From positions 1-64,000 of the forward strand of contig JAPLDH010000008.1 in assembly GCA_026391355.1 (NCBI GenBank): a DNA stretch of 64,000 nucleotides, read 5' to 3'. This DNA is from Bacteroidota bacterium. GTDB lineage: Bacteria; Bacteroidota; Bacteroidia; Bacteroidales; FEN-979. A model generated the notes under the pieces. That model was not told the DNA's origin. It saw only the letters and a list, made by a program, of their open reading frames with translations, and made no database searches. Shown piece by piece: positions 57,798 through 64,000 of this stretch (the stretch's first letter is position 1; every line of letters starts with the position of its first letter). A program made the translations under genes and the position numbers.

Positions 57798-58367
57798 ATG
57801 TTAACACTTGGATTAGAAGAGAAAAACACATTTCTGGAGGCCATAAATAAAAAAAGCGGCGCAAATGTTCTTGAATGTTACCAGTGCGGGAAATGCGCTT
57901 CCACCTGTCCGGTTTCTGATTTTATGGAATTCCGGCCCAGGGTGATCATGCAGATGATCAAACTGGGAATGAAAGAAGAGGTGTGCATGACCGATTCCAT
58001 ATGGTTTTGCCTAACATGTTCGGCATGTAGTGGCCGTTGCCCGAGGGAAATCGATATTCCTGCTGTGATGGAAGCGATCCGTCATCTTACCATAGAGGAA
58101 AACTATCATCCTAAATCAAAGAAGGTAAAGGATATCCGAAAGTTCCACGAGATCTTCCTCGATATGATCAAACGGTACGGACGCAATTATGAACTTCGCA
58201 TGATGGCTGAGTTCAATATCCGTACAAGGAATCTTTTCAAGGATATGCATCTTGCTCCAAAAGCTTTATTGAAAGGGAAAATCCCCTTGGGTCACGAAAG
58301 TACCAAGAGCGCCAAAGCCATTAGGAAAATGTATGAGATGGCAGAAAAGCTGGAGAAAAGTAAGTAA
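57798..58367 (+). CDS. hdrC: HdrC-like heterodisulfide reductase subunit (two 4Fe-4S clusters)
   Basis: A 189-aa iron-sulfur protein with two cluster motifs, CYQCGKCASTCPVSDF near residue 27 and CLTCSACSGRCPREIDI near residue 74, followed by the helical tail of the HdrC family. It passes electrons between HdrA and HdrB. It is the first gene of an operon with hdrB (33 bp later), hdrA, flxD and flx genes. The order hdrC-hdrB-hdrA-mvhD is that of bacterial Flx-Hdr clusters. Confidence 0.92.
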   Translation: MLTLGLEEKNTFLEAINKKSGANVLECYQCGKCASTCPVSDFMEFRPRVIMQMIKLGMKEEVCMTDSIWFCLTCSACSGRCPREIDIPAVMEAIRHLTIEENYHPKSKKVKDIRKFHEIFLDMIKRYGRNYELRMMAEFNIRTRNLFKDMHLAPKALLKGKIPLGHESTKSAKAIRKMYEMAEKLEKSK

Positions 58368-58400
58368 TCCTGTTCCACAAAAAAAAATTCGATTCAATTT

Positions 58401-59345
58401 ATGAAGAAGCTGACCTATTTCCCCGGTTGTTCGGCTCATGGTACCAGTGAAGAGTTTGATCATACGCTAAAGCTTGTGATGAAAACGCTGGACGTTGAGA
58501 TGGAAGAGATCCCGGATTGGAATTGTTGCGGCGCTACTTCCGCCCATGTCATGACAGAAAACCTGGCCTACGCTTTACCCTTGCGTAACCTGGTCCTGGC
58601 GGAAAAGTTCACCGGCAACATCATGGGAATTGCATGTGCATCCTGCTATTCAAGGATGAAAACAACCAAAGTTCATATGGATGAGAATCCTGAGCTTGCC
58701 AAAAAGATCAATTCCACCATTATTCAGGAAGGAAACTACACAGGCCGTGTAGAGGTAAAATCAATGCTCCAATACTGCTACGAAGATATTGGCCTGGAAA
58801 CCATAAAAAGTAAAGTAACCAAATCATTGGCCGGTTTAAAAGTGGCTTGTTATTATGGATGCCTGCTGACCCGGCCCAAAGGGATCACGAAATTCGACTC
58901 CCCTGAATACCCTGTTTCCATGGATCAGATCATGGAGGCGCTGGGCGCTGAAGCAGTCGAGTTTGACTTCAAAACGGAATGTTGCGGGGCATCCTTTTCC
59001 ATTTCAGATACGGAAATCGTCGAATCGCTTACAGGCAAGATCCTGGAGGTAGCAAAAGAAAGCGGAGCCCACCTGATCGTTGTAGCCTGTCCTTTGTGTC
59101 AGTCGAACCTCGATATGCGTCAACCTGATATCGAAAAACACCAGGGAAAGTCATTCCGGTTGCCGGTGATGTACCTAACCCAGTTGATGGCGCTTGCCTT
59201 CGGTTATCCGGAATCAGATATGCGACTAAAAAAGCATATTGTTCCCGTGGAAGAAGCGCTTTCAAACATCGGAAAAATTCAGGAACCACCTCCTAAAGTA
59301 ACGAAAACCAAAAAAGCTGTTTCAGCAGAAAGCGAGGTAGAATAA
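58401..59345 (+). CDS. hdrB: HdrB-like heterodisulfide reductase catalytic subunit
   Basis: A 314-aa protein with two complete CCG domains. The first is C10, C42-C43, C79, C82 (C-X31-CC-X35-CxxC). The second is C154, C194-C195, C230, C233. In methanogen HdrB these ligands bind two noncubane 4Fe-4S clusters that reduce a disulfide. Both sets are intact, so the protein should be active on some disulfide; which one is not known, as no DsrC is in the window. The stop overlaps the hdrA start by one base. Confidence 0.92.
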   Translation: MKKLTYFPGCSAHGTSEEFDHTLKLVMKTLDVEMEEIPDWNCCGATSAHVMTENLAYALPLRNLVLAEKFTGNIMGIACASCYSRMKTTKVHMDENPELAKKINSTIIQEGNYTGRVEVKSMLQYCYEDIGLETIKSKVTKSLAGLKVACYYGCLLTRPKGITKFDSPEYPVSMDQIMEALGAEAVEFDFKTECCGASFSISDTEIVESLTGKILEVAKESGAHLIVVACPLCQSNLDMRQPDIEKHQGKSFRLPVMYLTQLMALAFGYPESDMRLKKHIVPVEEALSNIGKIQEPPPKVTKTKKAVSAESEVE

Positions 59346-61318
59346 TGGCCAGAGTAGGTGTTTTCACTTGTTTTTGCGGCGCCAATATAGCCGATTTTGT
59401 TGATGTACCCAGGGTTGTCGAGGAAACCAGGAAGATCAGGGAAGTAAGATGTTCCATCGAATACAAATATATGTGTTCGGATCCAGGGCAGCAGATGATC
59501 CGTGATGCCATTGTTCAGCAAAGACTGACCTCGGTTGTGGTGGCAGCATGTTCTCCCCGGATGCATGAAAAAACCTTCCGGAAAGCTTTGTCCGATGCTG
59601 GTATGAATCCTTACCTGCTGGAAGTTGCCAATATCAGGGAACATTCTTCCTGGGTTCACCAGAAGGATAAAAAAGCGGCTACAGATAAAGCAATCGACCT
59701 GATCCGTATGGCGGTTGCTAAATCCATTGCAAACGAACAGCTATATGAGATCTCCGTTCCCGTGACCAAGCGTGCGTTGGTGATCGGTGGAGGCATTGCA
59801 GGTATCCAGGCAGCCCTCGATATCGCTGACGCCAGGATCCCGGTAACCCTTGTTGAAAAAAGCCCTTCCATCGGTGGACGCATGGCCCAATTGGATGAGA
59901 CTTTCCCGACGCTCGACTGCTCACAGTGTATCCTTACACCCAAAATGGTGGATGTGGCTTCACACCCCTATATTGAGCTCATTCCCTATTCCGAAGTGAT
60001 AGAACTCGATGGTTTTGTTGGAAACTATAAAGCCAAGATCAGGAAGAAAGCCTCCTATGTCAATTTTGCAAACTGTACTGGTTGTGGGGCCTGCTGGCAA
60101 AAATGCCCGGTGAAGGTTCCGAATGAGTACAACATGAATATCGATAAAAGGAAGGCCATCTATACACCTTTTCCCCAGGCTGTTCCAAATAAACCGGTCA
60201 TCGATGCAGCGCATTGCACAATGCTGCTGAAAGGAAAATGCGGGATTTGCGCGAAGGTTTGCGAAAAAGGTGCCATCGATTTCAAGATGCAGGATGAAAT
60301 TATTGAACGGGAGATTGGTGCGGTAGTGGTAGCGACCGGTTATGATCTCTGGGATCCAAAACCTTACGAAGAATATGGTGTTGGACGTTATAAGGACATC
60401 ATTACCTCTCTGGAATTTGAGCGGATGGTTTCTGCAAATGGCCCGACTGGAGGTGTTCCACAGAGGCCTTCTGACGGTAAAGTGCCCAAGACCGTTGTTT
60501 TCATCAAATGTATCGGTTCCCGCGACGAAGCCAAAGGAATTGAATACTGCTCGAAGATTTGTTGCATGTACACTGCAAAACACGCAATCCTCCTGCATCA
60601 CAAAGTGCATGATTCCCATGCATATATCTTCTATATGGATATCCGTGCCGCAGGTAAGGGATACGAGGAATTTGTTAAAAAAGCGCAGGTTGATACTGCT
60701 GCCACCTATCTCCGGGGAAGGGTTTCAAAAATTTATAAGAAAGGGGATAAGCTGATGGTAAGGGGCGAAGATGCCCAGATCGGACAACTGGTAGAAGTAG
60801 AGGCTGATCTTGTTGTGCTTGCTACTGCTATCATTGCACCTAAAGATAACCCGAACCTTGCAAGGCTGCTGGGTATTTCCTATGATAAATACGGTTACTT
60901 GTCGGAAGCTCATCCGAAATTGCGGCCTGTCGAAACGGCAAAAGCTGGTATTTTCCTGGCAGGCTGCACGCAGGCACCCAAAGATATTCCCGATACCGTA
61001 GCCCAGGCATCAGCATGTGCCGCCAAGGTATGTGGCCTCTTTTCAGGGGATACAATGAAAAAGGACCCGATGGTCTCAAAAGTGAATACAGAATTTTGTT
61101 CGGGTTGCCAGAATTGTGTCACAGTATGTCCCTATGGCGCCATTGTTACAGAAGAGATCCCGATGGGTCATGGTTCCAAGGAGATGCGCGTTGTTTCAAA
61201 AGTCAACGAAGGTGTTTGCCAGGGATGCGGGTCATGCGTGGCCATCTGCCGCAGCATGGCAATCAACCTGTCCGGTTTTACAGATCCTCAAATCATTAAC
61301 GAGATAGTTGCAATCTAA
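59345..61318 (+). CDS. hdrA: HdrA-like FAD-containing electron-bifurcating subunit
   Basis: A 657-aa protein. The N-terminal part has CFCGANIADFVDV with Cys 9, 11, 36 and 44. The FAD-binding GGGIAGIQAALDIA is at about residues 148-161. An inserted ferredoxin-like part has CTGCGACWQKCP (244-254) and CGICAKVCEKGA (299-306), and the C-terminal ferredoxin part has CSGCQNCVTVCPYGA and CQGCGSCVAICRSMA. HdrA holds the bifurcating flavin in methanogens. It has the fused C-terminal ferredoxin, and the partner flxD starts on its stop (TAATG). Confidence 0.93.
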   Translation: MARVGVFTCFCGANIADFVDVPRVVEETRKIREVRCSIEYKYMCSDPGQQMIRDAIVQQRLTSVVVAACSPRMHEKTFRKALSDAGMNPYLLEVANIREHSSWVHQKDKKAATDKAIDLIRMAVAKSIANEQLYEISVPVTKRALVIGGGIAGIQAALDIADARIPVTLVEKSPSIGGRMAQLDETFPTLDCSQCILTPKMVDVASHPYIELIPYSEVIELDGFVGNYKAKIRKKASYVNFANCTGCGACWQKCPVKVPNEYNMNIDKRKAIYTPFPQAVPNKPVIDAAHCTMLLKGKCGICAKVCEKGAIDFKMQDEIIEREIGAVVVATGYDLWDPKPYEEYGVGRYKDIITSLEFERMVSANGPTGGVPQRPSDGKVPKTVVFIKCIGSRDEAKGIEYCSKICCMYTAKHAILLHHKVHDSHAYIFYMDIRAAGKGYEEFVKKAQVDTAATYLRGRVSKIYKKGDKLMVRGEDAQIGQLVEVEADLVVLATAIIAPKDNPNLARLLGISYDKYGYLSEAHPKLRPVETAKAGIFLAGCTQAPKDIPDTVAQASACAAKVCGLFSGDTMKKDPMVSKVNTEFCSGCQNCVTVCPYGAIVTEEIPMGHGSKEMRVVSKVNEGVCQGCGSCVAICRSMAINLSGFTDPQIINEIVAI

Positions 61319-61809
61319 TGGAAACTGAAGTAAAAGAAACGAAAGGTCAAGTGGTTAGCGCGGAGAATCCCGGTATTGTTGCTCCTGCGGACTGGCAGCC
61401 GGTAATCATGGGGATCCTGTGTAACTGGTGTTCCTATGCCGGTTCCGACCTTACCGGAACATCGCGTATCCAGTATCCGCCGAATATCCGGATCATCAGG
61501 GTACCTTGTTCATCCAGGGTCGATCCCTGGTTCATCATCAAATCCCTGCAGACTTCTGCCGATGGGGTACTTATATCGGGTTGTCACCCTGGCGATTGCC
61601 ATTATATTTCGGGCAATTATTATGCACGGAGACGATTTCTCGTGACGAAAAAGCTGCTGAATTTTGTCGGGTACCATGAGAATAGGATTCAGTTTTCCTG
61701 GGTTTCCGCAGCAGAGGGACCGAAATTTGCCAAAGTCGTGGCAAAAGTCACCGAAGATATCAAGAAACTTGGACCTCTTCACAAATATAAAAAGGAGAAT
61801 CTGAAATAA
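61318..61809 (+). CDS. flxD: MvhD/FlxD-type iron-sulfur subunit
   Basis: A 163-aa protein of the MvhD family (hydrogenase iron-sulfur subunit, 2Fe-2S). The five conserved cysteines are C35 and C38 (ILCNWCSYAG), C64 (RVPCSSRVDP), C89 and C94 (SGCHPGDCHY). In methanogens MvhD links the hydrogenase to HdrA; here it would link the Flx module to HdrA. One-base overlaps with both neighbours indicate tight coupling. Confidence 0.9.
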   Translation: METEVKETKGQVVSAENPGIVAPADWQPVIMGILCNWCSYAGSDLTGTSRIQYPPNIRIIRVPCSSRVDPWFIIKSLQTSADGVLISGCHPGDCHYISGNYYARRRFLVTKKLLNFVGYHENRIQFSWVSAAEGPKFAKVVAKVTEDIKKLGPLHKYKKENLK

Positions 61810-62660
61810 TGGACTATACAAAACAAATCCAGGAAATCGCATCGAAACTGTTTGCTGAAGAAAAGATAGATATCTTTATCGGTTACCGGCAAAACGCTTT
61901 CGATGACAACCAGGTACCCATTTTGGTTACCGTCCCTGCCGATGTTCCTAATCTCATTTTTACCGATAAATCGGTACTGAACCTGACCAACTACCTGAAA
62001 TTTGAGCATACACGGAACAAAAGGGTGGGTATTGTTGTGAAAGGCTGCGACAGCAGGGCCTTGAATATGTTATTGACCGAGAGCCAGGTGAAACGCGAAA
62101 ACCTTTATGTGATCGGCATCAATTGCACAGGCGTATTGAACGAAAAAGGCGAAAAAGCCCAGAACTGCCTTGAATGTGTGATGCCGGATGCCGTGGTGTA
62201 CGATGAAATGATCGGAACCCCTTCAGGGAAGAAGGAATATTCTGTGAATGTGGATGTAAAAGAACTGGCAGCAAAAGGGCTGGTCGAACGTGGCGAATAT
62301 TTCCAGGAAATATTTGAGAACTGCATTAGGTGTAATGCCTGCCGCCATTCCTGTCCGTTGTGCTATTGCACTAAATGTTGCATTGACCAGGAGTCGGCTG
62401 TTCTGTACAATGGCTCAAACACACCCTCCAGTGCTTTTCATGCATTGATGACATGGTCGTTGCACCTGGCCGGCCGCTGCGTGGATTGCAGGAACTGTGA
62501 AAAGGCCTGTCCCAGTCATCTCCCGTTGCATCTCCTGCATAAGCAGAACGAGATGGTCATCTACGAAAACTTCCAGCAACACCTGGCGGGAATGGAGAAG
62601 GACGACCGGGGTGCATTTTACAAATACAGCATGAAAGATCCAGATGATTTTATAATGTAA
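61809..62660 (+). CDS. Flx-type iron-sulfur protein with CoF420-dehydrogenase beta-like N-terminus
   Basis: A 283-aa protein. The N-terminal half (VGIVVKGCDSRALNMLLTES) resembles the beta subunit of F420 hydrogenases/dehydrogenases. The C-terminal half has two cluster motifs, CIRCNACRHSCPLCYC with a following CC, and CVDCRNCEKACPSHL. It corresponds to FlxB or FlxC of the Flx module; I cannot assign which with certainty. In the operon it follows flxD by overlap and precedes the 348-aa flx protein. Confidence 0.8.
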   Translation: MDYTKQIQEIASKLFAEEKIDIFIGYRQNAFDDNQVPILVTVPADVPNLIFTDKSVLNLTNYLKFEHTRNKRVGIVVKGCDSRALNMLLTESQVKRENLYVIGINCTGVLNEKGEKAQNCLECVMPDAVVYDEMIGTPSGKKEYSVNVDVKELAAKGLVERGEYFQEIFENCIRCNACRHSCPLCYCTKCCIDQESAVLYNGSNTPSSAFHALMTWSLHLAGRCVDCRNCEKACPSHLPLHLLHKQNEMVIYENFQQHLAGMEKDDRGAFYKYSMKDPDDFIM

Positions 62661-62668
62661 TTCAACAC

Positions 62669-63715
62669 TTGATTATGAACTTTTCAGTTTTCGAAACAGA
62701 TAAAAACGGCCTGCAGAAGTTTTACGAAGAGACCATTGCGAAAAATGAGACTTATGCCCCGGTTGAAAAATTCGGGAAATATGACTATAAAAAGGTCTCA
62801 GCACTTCCGGAATGTGATCCCGATTCACCTATCAGCCTTACCATGAGTGTGAAACCCCTGTTTTTTCCGCGGTCTTCAAAGATCATGAAATATGAGGAGA
62901 ACAGGGAAGGGACGATCATCACCGAAACAGATGAAGATCCGTTGGCAGGAAAAAGAGTAATACTGGGTGTAAAACATTGTGATGCCAGAGGTTTACAGGT
63001 GCTTGATAGGGTATATAAATGGGATTACATCGATGCAGACTACCAGAAAAGAAGAGAAAATTCGGTGATCATTTCCACCCGTTGCAATAAAGCCGATGTA
63101 AATTGTTTCTGCACCTCACTTGATTATGATGTGGAAAATTCTGATGCCCATGATATCCGGATTATCAATGGATTGAACGAAAAGATTTATATTCAGGCAG
63201 TAACGGAAAAGGGAGAGGATTTGTTGAAGGGAGTTCCCGGTTTGCAGTTCTCAGTTTGCAGTTCTGAGGTAGCAGGAGAAGAGAGTGCAAAGCATTTCAA
63301 GGCATTTGATTCATCCTTTCGCCTGAAGATGAACTACAAGGAGGTCAATGAGAAGCTTCAGAATTCATTTGATTCGCCGGAATTTGACCCTGCCTCAAAG
63401 AATTGTATCAGTTGCAATACATGCGCTTTTATTTGCCCGACATGTCATTGTTTCAAGATCACCGATGAGAAAATTAAAGACACGGGGATTCGCTATAAAA
63501 GCTACGATTCATGCAACAATGGCTATTTCACCCTGATGGCCGGCGGGCATAATCCGCGACCTGTCAAATACCGCAGATGGCGCCAGCGTGCTATGCATAA
63601 ATTTGTTTATTATAAGGAACGATTTGGAGTAAACCTATGCGTGGGTTGCGGCCATTGTGCAATCTCATGCCCTGTGAATATCAGCATTTTTGATGTTGTA
63701 AACCAAGTAGTTTAG
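62669..63715 (+). CDS. Flx-type 4Fe-4S protein, AsrA/sulfhydrogenase beta-like
   Basis: A 348-aa protein similar to the beta subunit of sulfhydrogenases and AsrA. GVKHCDARGLQVLDRVYKWD is the family segment in the N-terminal domain, and the C-terminal half has CISCNTCAFICPTCHCFKI and CVGCGHCAISCPVNI. It is the probable electron relay from FlxA. Residues GLQFSVCSSE come from a short-word array (63239-63269) and look like an in-frame insertion. A Met one codon further in is an alternative start. Confidence 0.8.
   Translation: MIMNFSVFETDKNGLQKFYEETIAKNETYAPVEKFGKYDYKKVSALPECDPDSPISLTMSVKPLFFPRSSKIMKYEENREGTIITETDEDPLAGKRVILGVKHCDARGLQVLDRVYKWDYIDADYQKRRENSVIISTRCNKADVNCFCTSLDYDVENSDAHDIRIINGLNEKIYIQAVTEKGEDLLKGVPGLQFSVCSSEVAGEESAKHFKAFDSSFRLKMNYKEVNEKLQNSFDSPEFDPASKNCISCNTCAFICPTCHCFKITDEKIKDTGIRYKSYDSCNNGYFTLMAGGHNPRPVKYRRWRQRAMHKFVYYKERFGVNLCVGCGHCAISCPVNISIFDVVNQVV
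63239..63269. repeat. Tandem word array (AACTG family) inside a flx gene
   Basis: GTTTGCAGTTCTCAGTTTGC then AGTTCTGAGG; period about 7-8 bp. It belongs to the family at 39159 and 41204 and is in frame and stop-free in the coding frame. Confidence 0.7.
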
Positions 63716-63735
63716 CAGCCCCACTCCTCACCCCT

Positions 63736-63747
63736 CCCCAATTGGGG
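63736..63747. repeat. C-run/G-run palindrome between flx genes
   Basis: CCCCAATTGGGG within a C-rich and then G-rich stretch (63731-63764). It is the same kind as the hairpins at 25721 and 26887 and sits between two operon genes. Confidence 0.65.
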
Positions 63748-63778
63748 AAGGGAAGGGTTGGGGAAACACATAAAATAT

Positions 63779-64000
63779 ATGGAACAGTTATTAGTACCTG
63801 CACTTTGCAAAATTGATAAGATTATCGAGGAAACACCCGATGTTCTGACATACCGGTTGATTTTCAAAGACCCGGAAATGTTCGGGAAATTCAAATGGCT
63901 TCCGGGCCAGTTTGTAGAATTCTCATTGCTTGGCCGCGGTGAGTGTACATTCTGCATTTCTTCGTCGGTTACCCGTCCCGGTTATTTCGACTGTTCCATA
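63779..64000 (+). CDS. flxA: FlxA-like FAD/NAD-binding reductase, start only
   Basis: The first 74 codons of a protein that begins MEQLLVPALCKIDKIIEETP, then TYRLIFKD, FKWLPGQFVEFSLLGRGECT and FCISSSVTRPG. This is the ferredoxin-reductase-type FAD-binding start of the sulfhydrogenase gamma/AsrB/FlxA family, where PGQF and the following C/S-containing segment contact the flavin. The NAD-binding part lies right of the window. FlxA should take electrons from NADH in the Flx-Hdr complex. Start by ATG at 63779. Confidence 0.85.
   Translation, partial: MEQLLVPALCKIDKIIEETPDVLTYRLIFKDPEMFGKFKWLPGQFVEFSLLGRGECTFCISSSVTRPGYFDCSI

Follow-up and report, generated by a model that had tools for sequence, protein, structure and literature searches.

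At the end of a 64,000-nucleotide stretch of a Bacteroidota genome (the whole stretch analysed, called the window here), an earlier note had read a full Flx-Hdr electron-bifurcating operon. Does this operon exist, which disulfide would it reduce, and what would it contribute to the energy metabolism of its host? By its anatomy the operon is FlxABCD-HdrABC, the canonical and complete gene set of a known electron-splitting enzyme. The enzyme is known in kind and the lineage is new, an uncultured Bacteroidales family in which we infer the function from sequence.

Gene calls and conserved residues

Open reading frames and an extension of the contig place hdrC, hdrB, hdrA, flxD and genes resembling flxC and flxB complete in the window, with flxA beginning there and finishing just beyond its end at 64,000. 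All lie on the forward strand, and the Pfam and NCBIfam profiles agree with these assignments. The first operon gene across the family is hdrC (57798..58367), which encodes a two-[4Fe-4S] electron-transfer subunit (Fer4_8/Fer4_17; best curated match CoB-CoM HdrC). It is followed by hdrB (58401..59345), for the disulfide-site subunit with two CCG motifs (PF02754 twice), and by hdrA (59345..61318), for the bifurcation subunit, which carries FAD and has ferredoxin domains both inserted and at the C terminus (805 bits to HdrA2). The flxD product (61318..61809) is an MvhD/FlpD-like [2Fe-2S] adaptor (PF02662, 170.7 bits), and the flxC-like gene (61809..62660) combines an FrhB C-terminal domain (PF04432, FrhB_C) with a 4Fe-4S domain (Fer4). 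Next comes the flxB-like gene (62675..63715), starting at ATG 62675 with TTG 62669 likewise open, for an iron-sulfur protein of the sulfhydrogenase beta or AsrA kind (PF17179, Fer4_22, 102.8 bits; ShyB/HydB/AsrA models). The 5′ part of flxA in the window (63758..64000) starts at TTG 63758, or at ATG 63779 as an alternative; the whole gene (L009:6759-7613) ends at about contig position 64612 and encodes the FAD-dependent, NAD(P)H-oxidising subunit, with PF00175 (NAD_binding_1) and the [2Fe-2S] domain PF10418 (DHODB_Fe-S). The names FlxB and FlxC for the two middle iron-sulfur proteins are our assignment, based on gene order and relatives.

The succession described by the earlier note is thereby upheld, and extending the contig, as it had proposed, supplied the remainder of flxA. 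The one-base overlaps that it saw throughout occur at three of the six junctions (hdrB/hdrA, hdrA/flxD, flxD/flxC); gaps of 33 bases (hdrC/hdrB), about 8-14 (flxC/flxB) and about 42-63 (flxB/flxA) separate the others. Because seven genes keep their order and recur throughout the family and in many phyla, the operon is not a product of chance. A further conserved gene that might encode the disulfide partner was sought in the window's lineage and none was found, the unit being exactly seven genes. Upstream, exbD-tonB occurs in some genera of this lineage only. Downstream, on the opposite strand, lie nrfA and nrfH (L009 11659-13863); a linkage between the operon and nrfAH was rejected, as the pairing is not conserved in relatives.

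The cluster ligands and the residues associated with bifurcation are all retained. HdrB, which aligns to the solved HdrB 8rvu_b, has both CCG ligand sets complete, its 10 ligand cysteines being kept by almost every one of 55 aligned orthologues. The five cysteines of FlxD, which matches 7bkb_F with 166 bits, are invariant in 79 rows. HdrA keeps all its 4Fe-4S sets and aligns end to end with Methanothermococcus HdrA (5odc_A, residues 3-654, 717 bits). Its K412 and E359 (K409 and E356 of M. thermolithotrophicus) correspond to a lysine and a glutamate that are credited with stabilising the bifurcating FAD (PMC12054007); they are present, and both ferredoxin cluster sets conserved, in 32/32 family rows. 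Identity of HdrA across the family is 87-93%, which implies strong constraint. The iron-sulfur cysteines of the FlxC-like protein are invariant across phyla, and its position in the operon is likewise kept elsewhere. The FlxB-like protein matches the solved 9nez_B, and FlxA matches sulfhydrogenase gamma 9nez_C (202 bits), with PF00175 at residues 123-226, complete only past the window's end, in addition to PF10418. Solved homologues are available for HdrA, HdrB, FlxD, FlxA and FlxB. The ligand sets, cysteines, FAD and ferredoxin parts that the earlier note attributed to HdrB, FlxD and HdrA are all found, together with the NAD-binding domain of FlxA and the lysine and glutamate of the bifurcating flavin site of HdrA; the absence of that domain or of that site was what it had named as fatal to its reading.

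Relatives and distribution

All seven subunit types are shared with the Desulfovibrio vulgaris FlxABCD-HdrABC, whose published order we take to be flxABCD-hdrABC, against hdrCBA-flxDCBA here. The D. vulgaris complex is reportedly described in Ramos 2015 and Ferreira 2023. Unlike D. vulgaris, the window's genome has no dsrA, and its DsrC is neither linked to the operon nor family-wide. The order hdrCBA-flxDCBA is identical in Syntrophomonadaceae, Ca. Formimonas, Ignavibacteria, Scalindua, Aerophobetes and Coriobacteria, where HdrA is about 53-60% identical; FlxC and FlxB, however, are only about 28-38% identical, and the window's lineage forms a separate clade. In the Syntrophomonadaceae and Ca. 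Formimonas loci (L066, L069, L075) the HdrA frames reach only about 460 aa, possibly through an in-frame stop read as selenocysteine. The HdrABC and MvhD core is common to the methanogen MvhAGD-HdrABC and Fdh-HdrABC, whose solved structures align, whereas the window's operon has FlxABC and no hydrogenase or formate dehydrogenase; no [NiFe]-hydrogenase MvhA/MvhG occurs among its open reading frames, contig extension included. Sulfhydrogenase beta and gamma and AsrAB are relatives of FlxB and FlxA, but the operon is without their NiFe or sirohaem catalytic subunit.

Flx-Hdr is present in 40 of the 43 family genomes. FlxB orthologues (68-82% identity) were found in 34/37, and six more genomes have HdrA at 90-91%; the genomes lacking the system are G007 (94% complete, with Rnf), G026 (69%) and G031 (80%). 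A close copy exists outside the family in one genome of the order (G042, HdrA 78%). Across an even draw from the order, FlxC homologues occur in 43/393 genomes, in three lineages. The surroundings were read in 38 of these genomes outside the family: the seven genes stand together in 25, contig ends truncate 8, two (family f146) show no flxA beside the other genes, and three (L190, L196, L199, from the Rnf-negative genomes G625, G529 and G628) carry flxABCD without adjoining hdr genes.

An HdrA tree, which the earlier note had proposed, and concatenated trees resolve the window's lineage (f1, f7), a broad second lineage (f18, f118, f160 and others) with the same order and motifs and with the flavin-site lysine and glutamate in 29/29 rows, and one genome (G658) beside Ignavibacteria. 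Five concatenated genes reject a single clade of the first two (p-AU 8e-6). HdrA alone rejects a single clade of all order rows (p 0.001) but not of the window's and second lineages (p 0.60), and was dropped as sole proof of separate origins. FlxC homologues are also present in other classes of the phylum. The openly licensed papers that we found place Flx-Hdr in sulfate reducers and syntrophs, and a published list names Krumholtzibacteriota and Desulfobacterota, Bacteroidota not among them (PMC7382037). To call the system poorly studied in this phylum, as the earlier note did, is fair for the literature searched; it is not rare, most of the 43 FlxC-positive genomes having the same operon.

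Several other loci contain related genes. A Bacteroidales-type operon stands in a record titled Alphaproteobacteria MAG (L064, SACF01000072.1), likely mislabelled or contaminated. In two genomes (L045 and L046, from G043 and G049) a FlxB/FlxA-like pair is combined with a membrane complex whose subunits include relatives of NiFe-hydrogenase and NuoH/L; this is not an Hdr operon. As read by eye, the window's genome also encodes the large and the small subunit of a [NiFe]-hydrogenase with hyp genes, together with MvhD, a QmoC-like protein and two proteins resembling HdrA (L130, G000:C54:160000-179000). A further set resembling HdrC/HdrB/HdrA, accompanied by a 610-aa membrane protein (L132 4513-9582, G000:C39), brings its Hdr-type loci to at least four.

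The disulfide partner and the direction of the reaction

The earlier note saw no DsrC, which is true of the window only: other contigs of the genome encode a DsrC with both redox cysteines and a paralogue with a single cysteine. DsrC (PF04358) was found in 34/43 family genomes, in two types. In the first, which scores about 111-116 bits, every copy that was read retains both C-terminal cysteines and the protein ends in ...GACRIAGLPKPDGCV; the second scores about 85-90 bits, has one such cysteine and ends in ...AAKIAGIPKPSSCV. The remaining copies were given a probable type from their score. The two-cysteine type occurs in 19 family genomes, 17 of them Flx-positive. The PF04358 search detected none in 23 of the 40 Flx-positive family genomes and no DsrC of any type in eight, including G006 (99% complete) and G010 (98%). 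With a two-cysteine DsrC in only 17 of 40 and none whatever in eight, DsrC probably does not serve as the general Flx-Hdr partner. In the window's genome the two-cysteine protein (contig C44) is the leading candidate for the disulfide, but its distribution across the family speaks for a different partner, or more than one.

The two-cysteine gene (L131, G000:C44:243000-262500) lies with DsrM/DsrK-like, cysteine desulfurase, DsrE2 and MvhD genes, an HdrA with a GltD-like insertion, and Qmo/HdrA-like and QmoC-like genes. The paralogue (L149 8806-9126, G000:C62) is found beside a protein resembling sulfide:quinone oxidoreductase (by eye) and a DsrE-like protein, and is conserved in many family members.

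A soluble FlxABCD-HdrABC complex bifurcating electrons from NADH to ferredoxin and a disulfide is the best explanation of the operon, with a probability of about 0.75. It is also favoured by the reported binding of DsrC to this complex in D. vulgaris (Ferreira 2023, cited by PMC10504309), given the two-cysteine DsrC of the window's genome. We obtained gene content, order, ligands, flavin-site residues and distribution, from which we infer complex formation, direction, NADH specificity and the disulfide. FlxA, with its FAD and [2Fe-2S] cluster, would oxidise NADH, although NADH and NADPH cannot be told apart from its sequence. Electrons would then move via FlxB/FlxC and FlxD to the FAD of HdrA, where each pair would be split. 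The low-potential electron would reach ferredoxin by way of the ferredoxin domains of HdrA, and the high-potential electron would travel through HdrC to the CCG clusters of HdrB and on to the disulfide. [FeFe]-hydrogenase domains, present in 42/43 family genomes, mark a possible candidate user of the ferredoxin.

Hdr-type bifurcation is reversible in principle, and the direction could be reversed. That the complex runs mainly by confurcation, making NADH from reduced ferredoxin and thiols, seems quite unlikely to us: sequence cannot show direction, and no thiol donor is known here. Bifurcation and confurcation are handled together in PMC12054007, which leaves room for that reading. That the complex acts specifically as a DsrC reductase or oxidase for sulfur metabolism, the role it has in sulfate reducers, is also unlikely. 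The D. vulgaris interaction with DsrC would fit this reading, and the DsrC of the window's own genome lies among the DsrM/DsrK-like, cysteine desulfurase, DsrE2 and Qmo/HdrA-like genes listed above; yet that locus is on another contig with HdrA-type and QmoC-like genes of its own, dsrA was found in none of the 43 family genomes, this one included, and Flx-Hdr persists where DsrC went undetected. For a non-bifurcating NADH:disulfide reductase we found no supporting point, and the conserved flavin-site residues and ferredoxin cluster sets of HdrA make it highly improbable.

Sodium pumps and complex I

The window's genome gave no RnfC match above the cut-off, and only 3/43 genomes of its family have Rnf. 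Since Rnf is missing, Flx-Hdr is probably a main NADH-ferredoxin link in this family. Two members (G021 and G061, the latter with 7% contamination) have both systems. RnfC is found in 322/393 genomes of the order, namely in 9/43 Flx-positive against 313/350 Flx-negative genomes (Fisher 3.6e-21), and NqrF in 7/43 against 310/350 (6.9e-23), both tests counting genomes as independent despite their kinship. Each depletion remains when genomes are split by the other pump (p at most about 4e-4, kinship again ignored). Nqr had been run as a specificity control, and its equal depletion weakens the idea that Flx replaces Rnf specifically; what is seen is a move away from the sodium pumps Rnf and Nqr alike. 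No earlier description of it was found in the openly licensed literature.

Lifestyle or shared ancestry, with no functional replacement, has close to an even chance of accounting for the association. A broad change in energy metabolism could account for the loss of both pumps, the 14-gene complex I cluster elsewhere in the window's genome (with a short NuoG) could stand in for Nqr, Flx-positive genomes retain Rnf in 8 families, and presence and absence were compared without a species tree. Against this, Flx-positive genomes without Rnf and Flx-negative genomes with it occur together in 12 families of the draw and, through G007, in the window's own, and Rnf depletion holds in Nqr-positive and Nqr-negative genomes alike.

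In four genomes (G658, G562, G504, G678) an 11-subunit complex I cluster that lacks nuoEFG, nuoABCDHIJKLMN, lies downstream of flxA in the same orientation; one extra gene intervenes in G562, and G678 retains Rnf and Nqr. Six Nuo subunits of G658 were checked by model, the remaining assignments in all four loci being read from the sequences. Of the four loci (L214, L215, L216, L217), two have after nuoN a gene for a 117-126 aa protein that matches no family. Ferredoxin has been put forward as an electron donor of complex I lacking NuoEFG (PMC3534657, PMC11238625), and a route from NADH through Flx-Hdr and ferredoxin to complex I would be plausible. We tentatively suggest, at rather less than even odds, that in Bacteroidales Flx-Hdr repeatedly took over the NADH-ferredoxin link from Rnf as part of a broader move from sodium pumps (Rnf and Nqr) to complex I, that in some lineages it shares a gene cluster with the 11-subunit form lacking the NADH module, and that its disulfide is one other than DsrC.

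Rnf has been described as conserved in gut Bacteroides and as critical for their fitness (PMC12718326). If many environmental Bacteroidales use Flx-Hdr as their NADH-ferredoxin link, models of fermentation and energy yield would need revision, and the identity of the disulfide would become a concrete question, testable across close relatives with and without each system.
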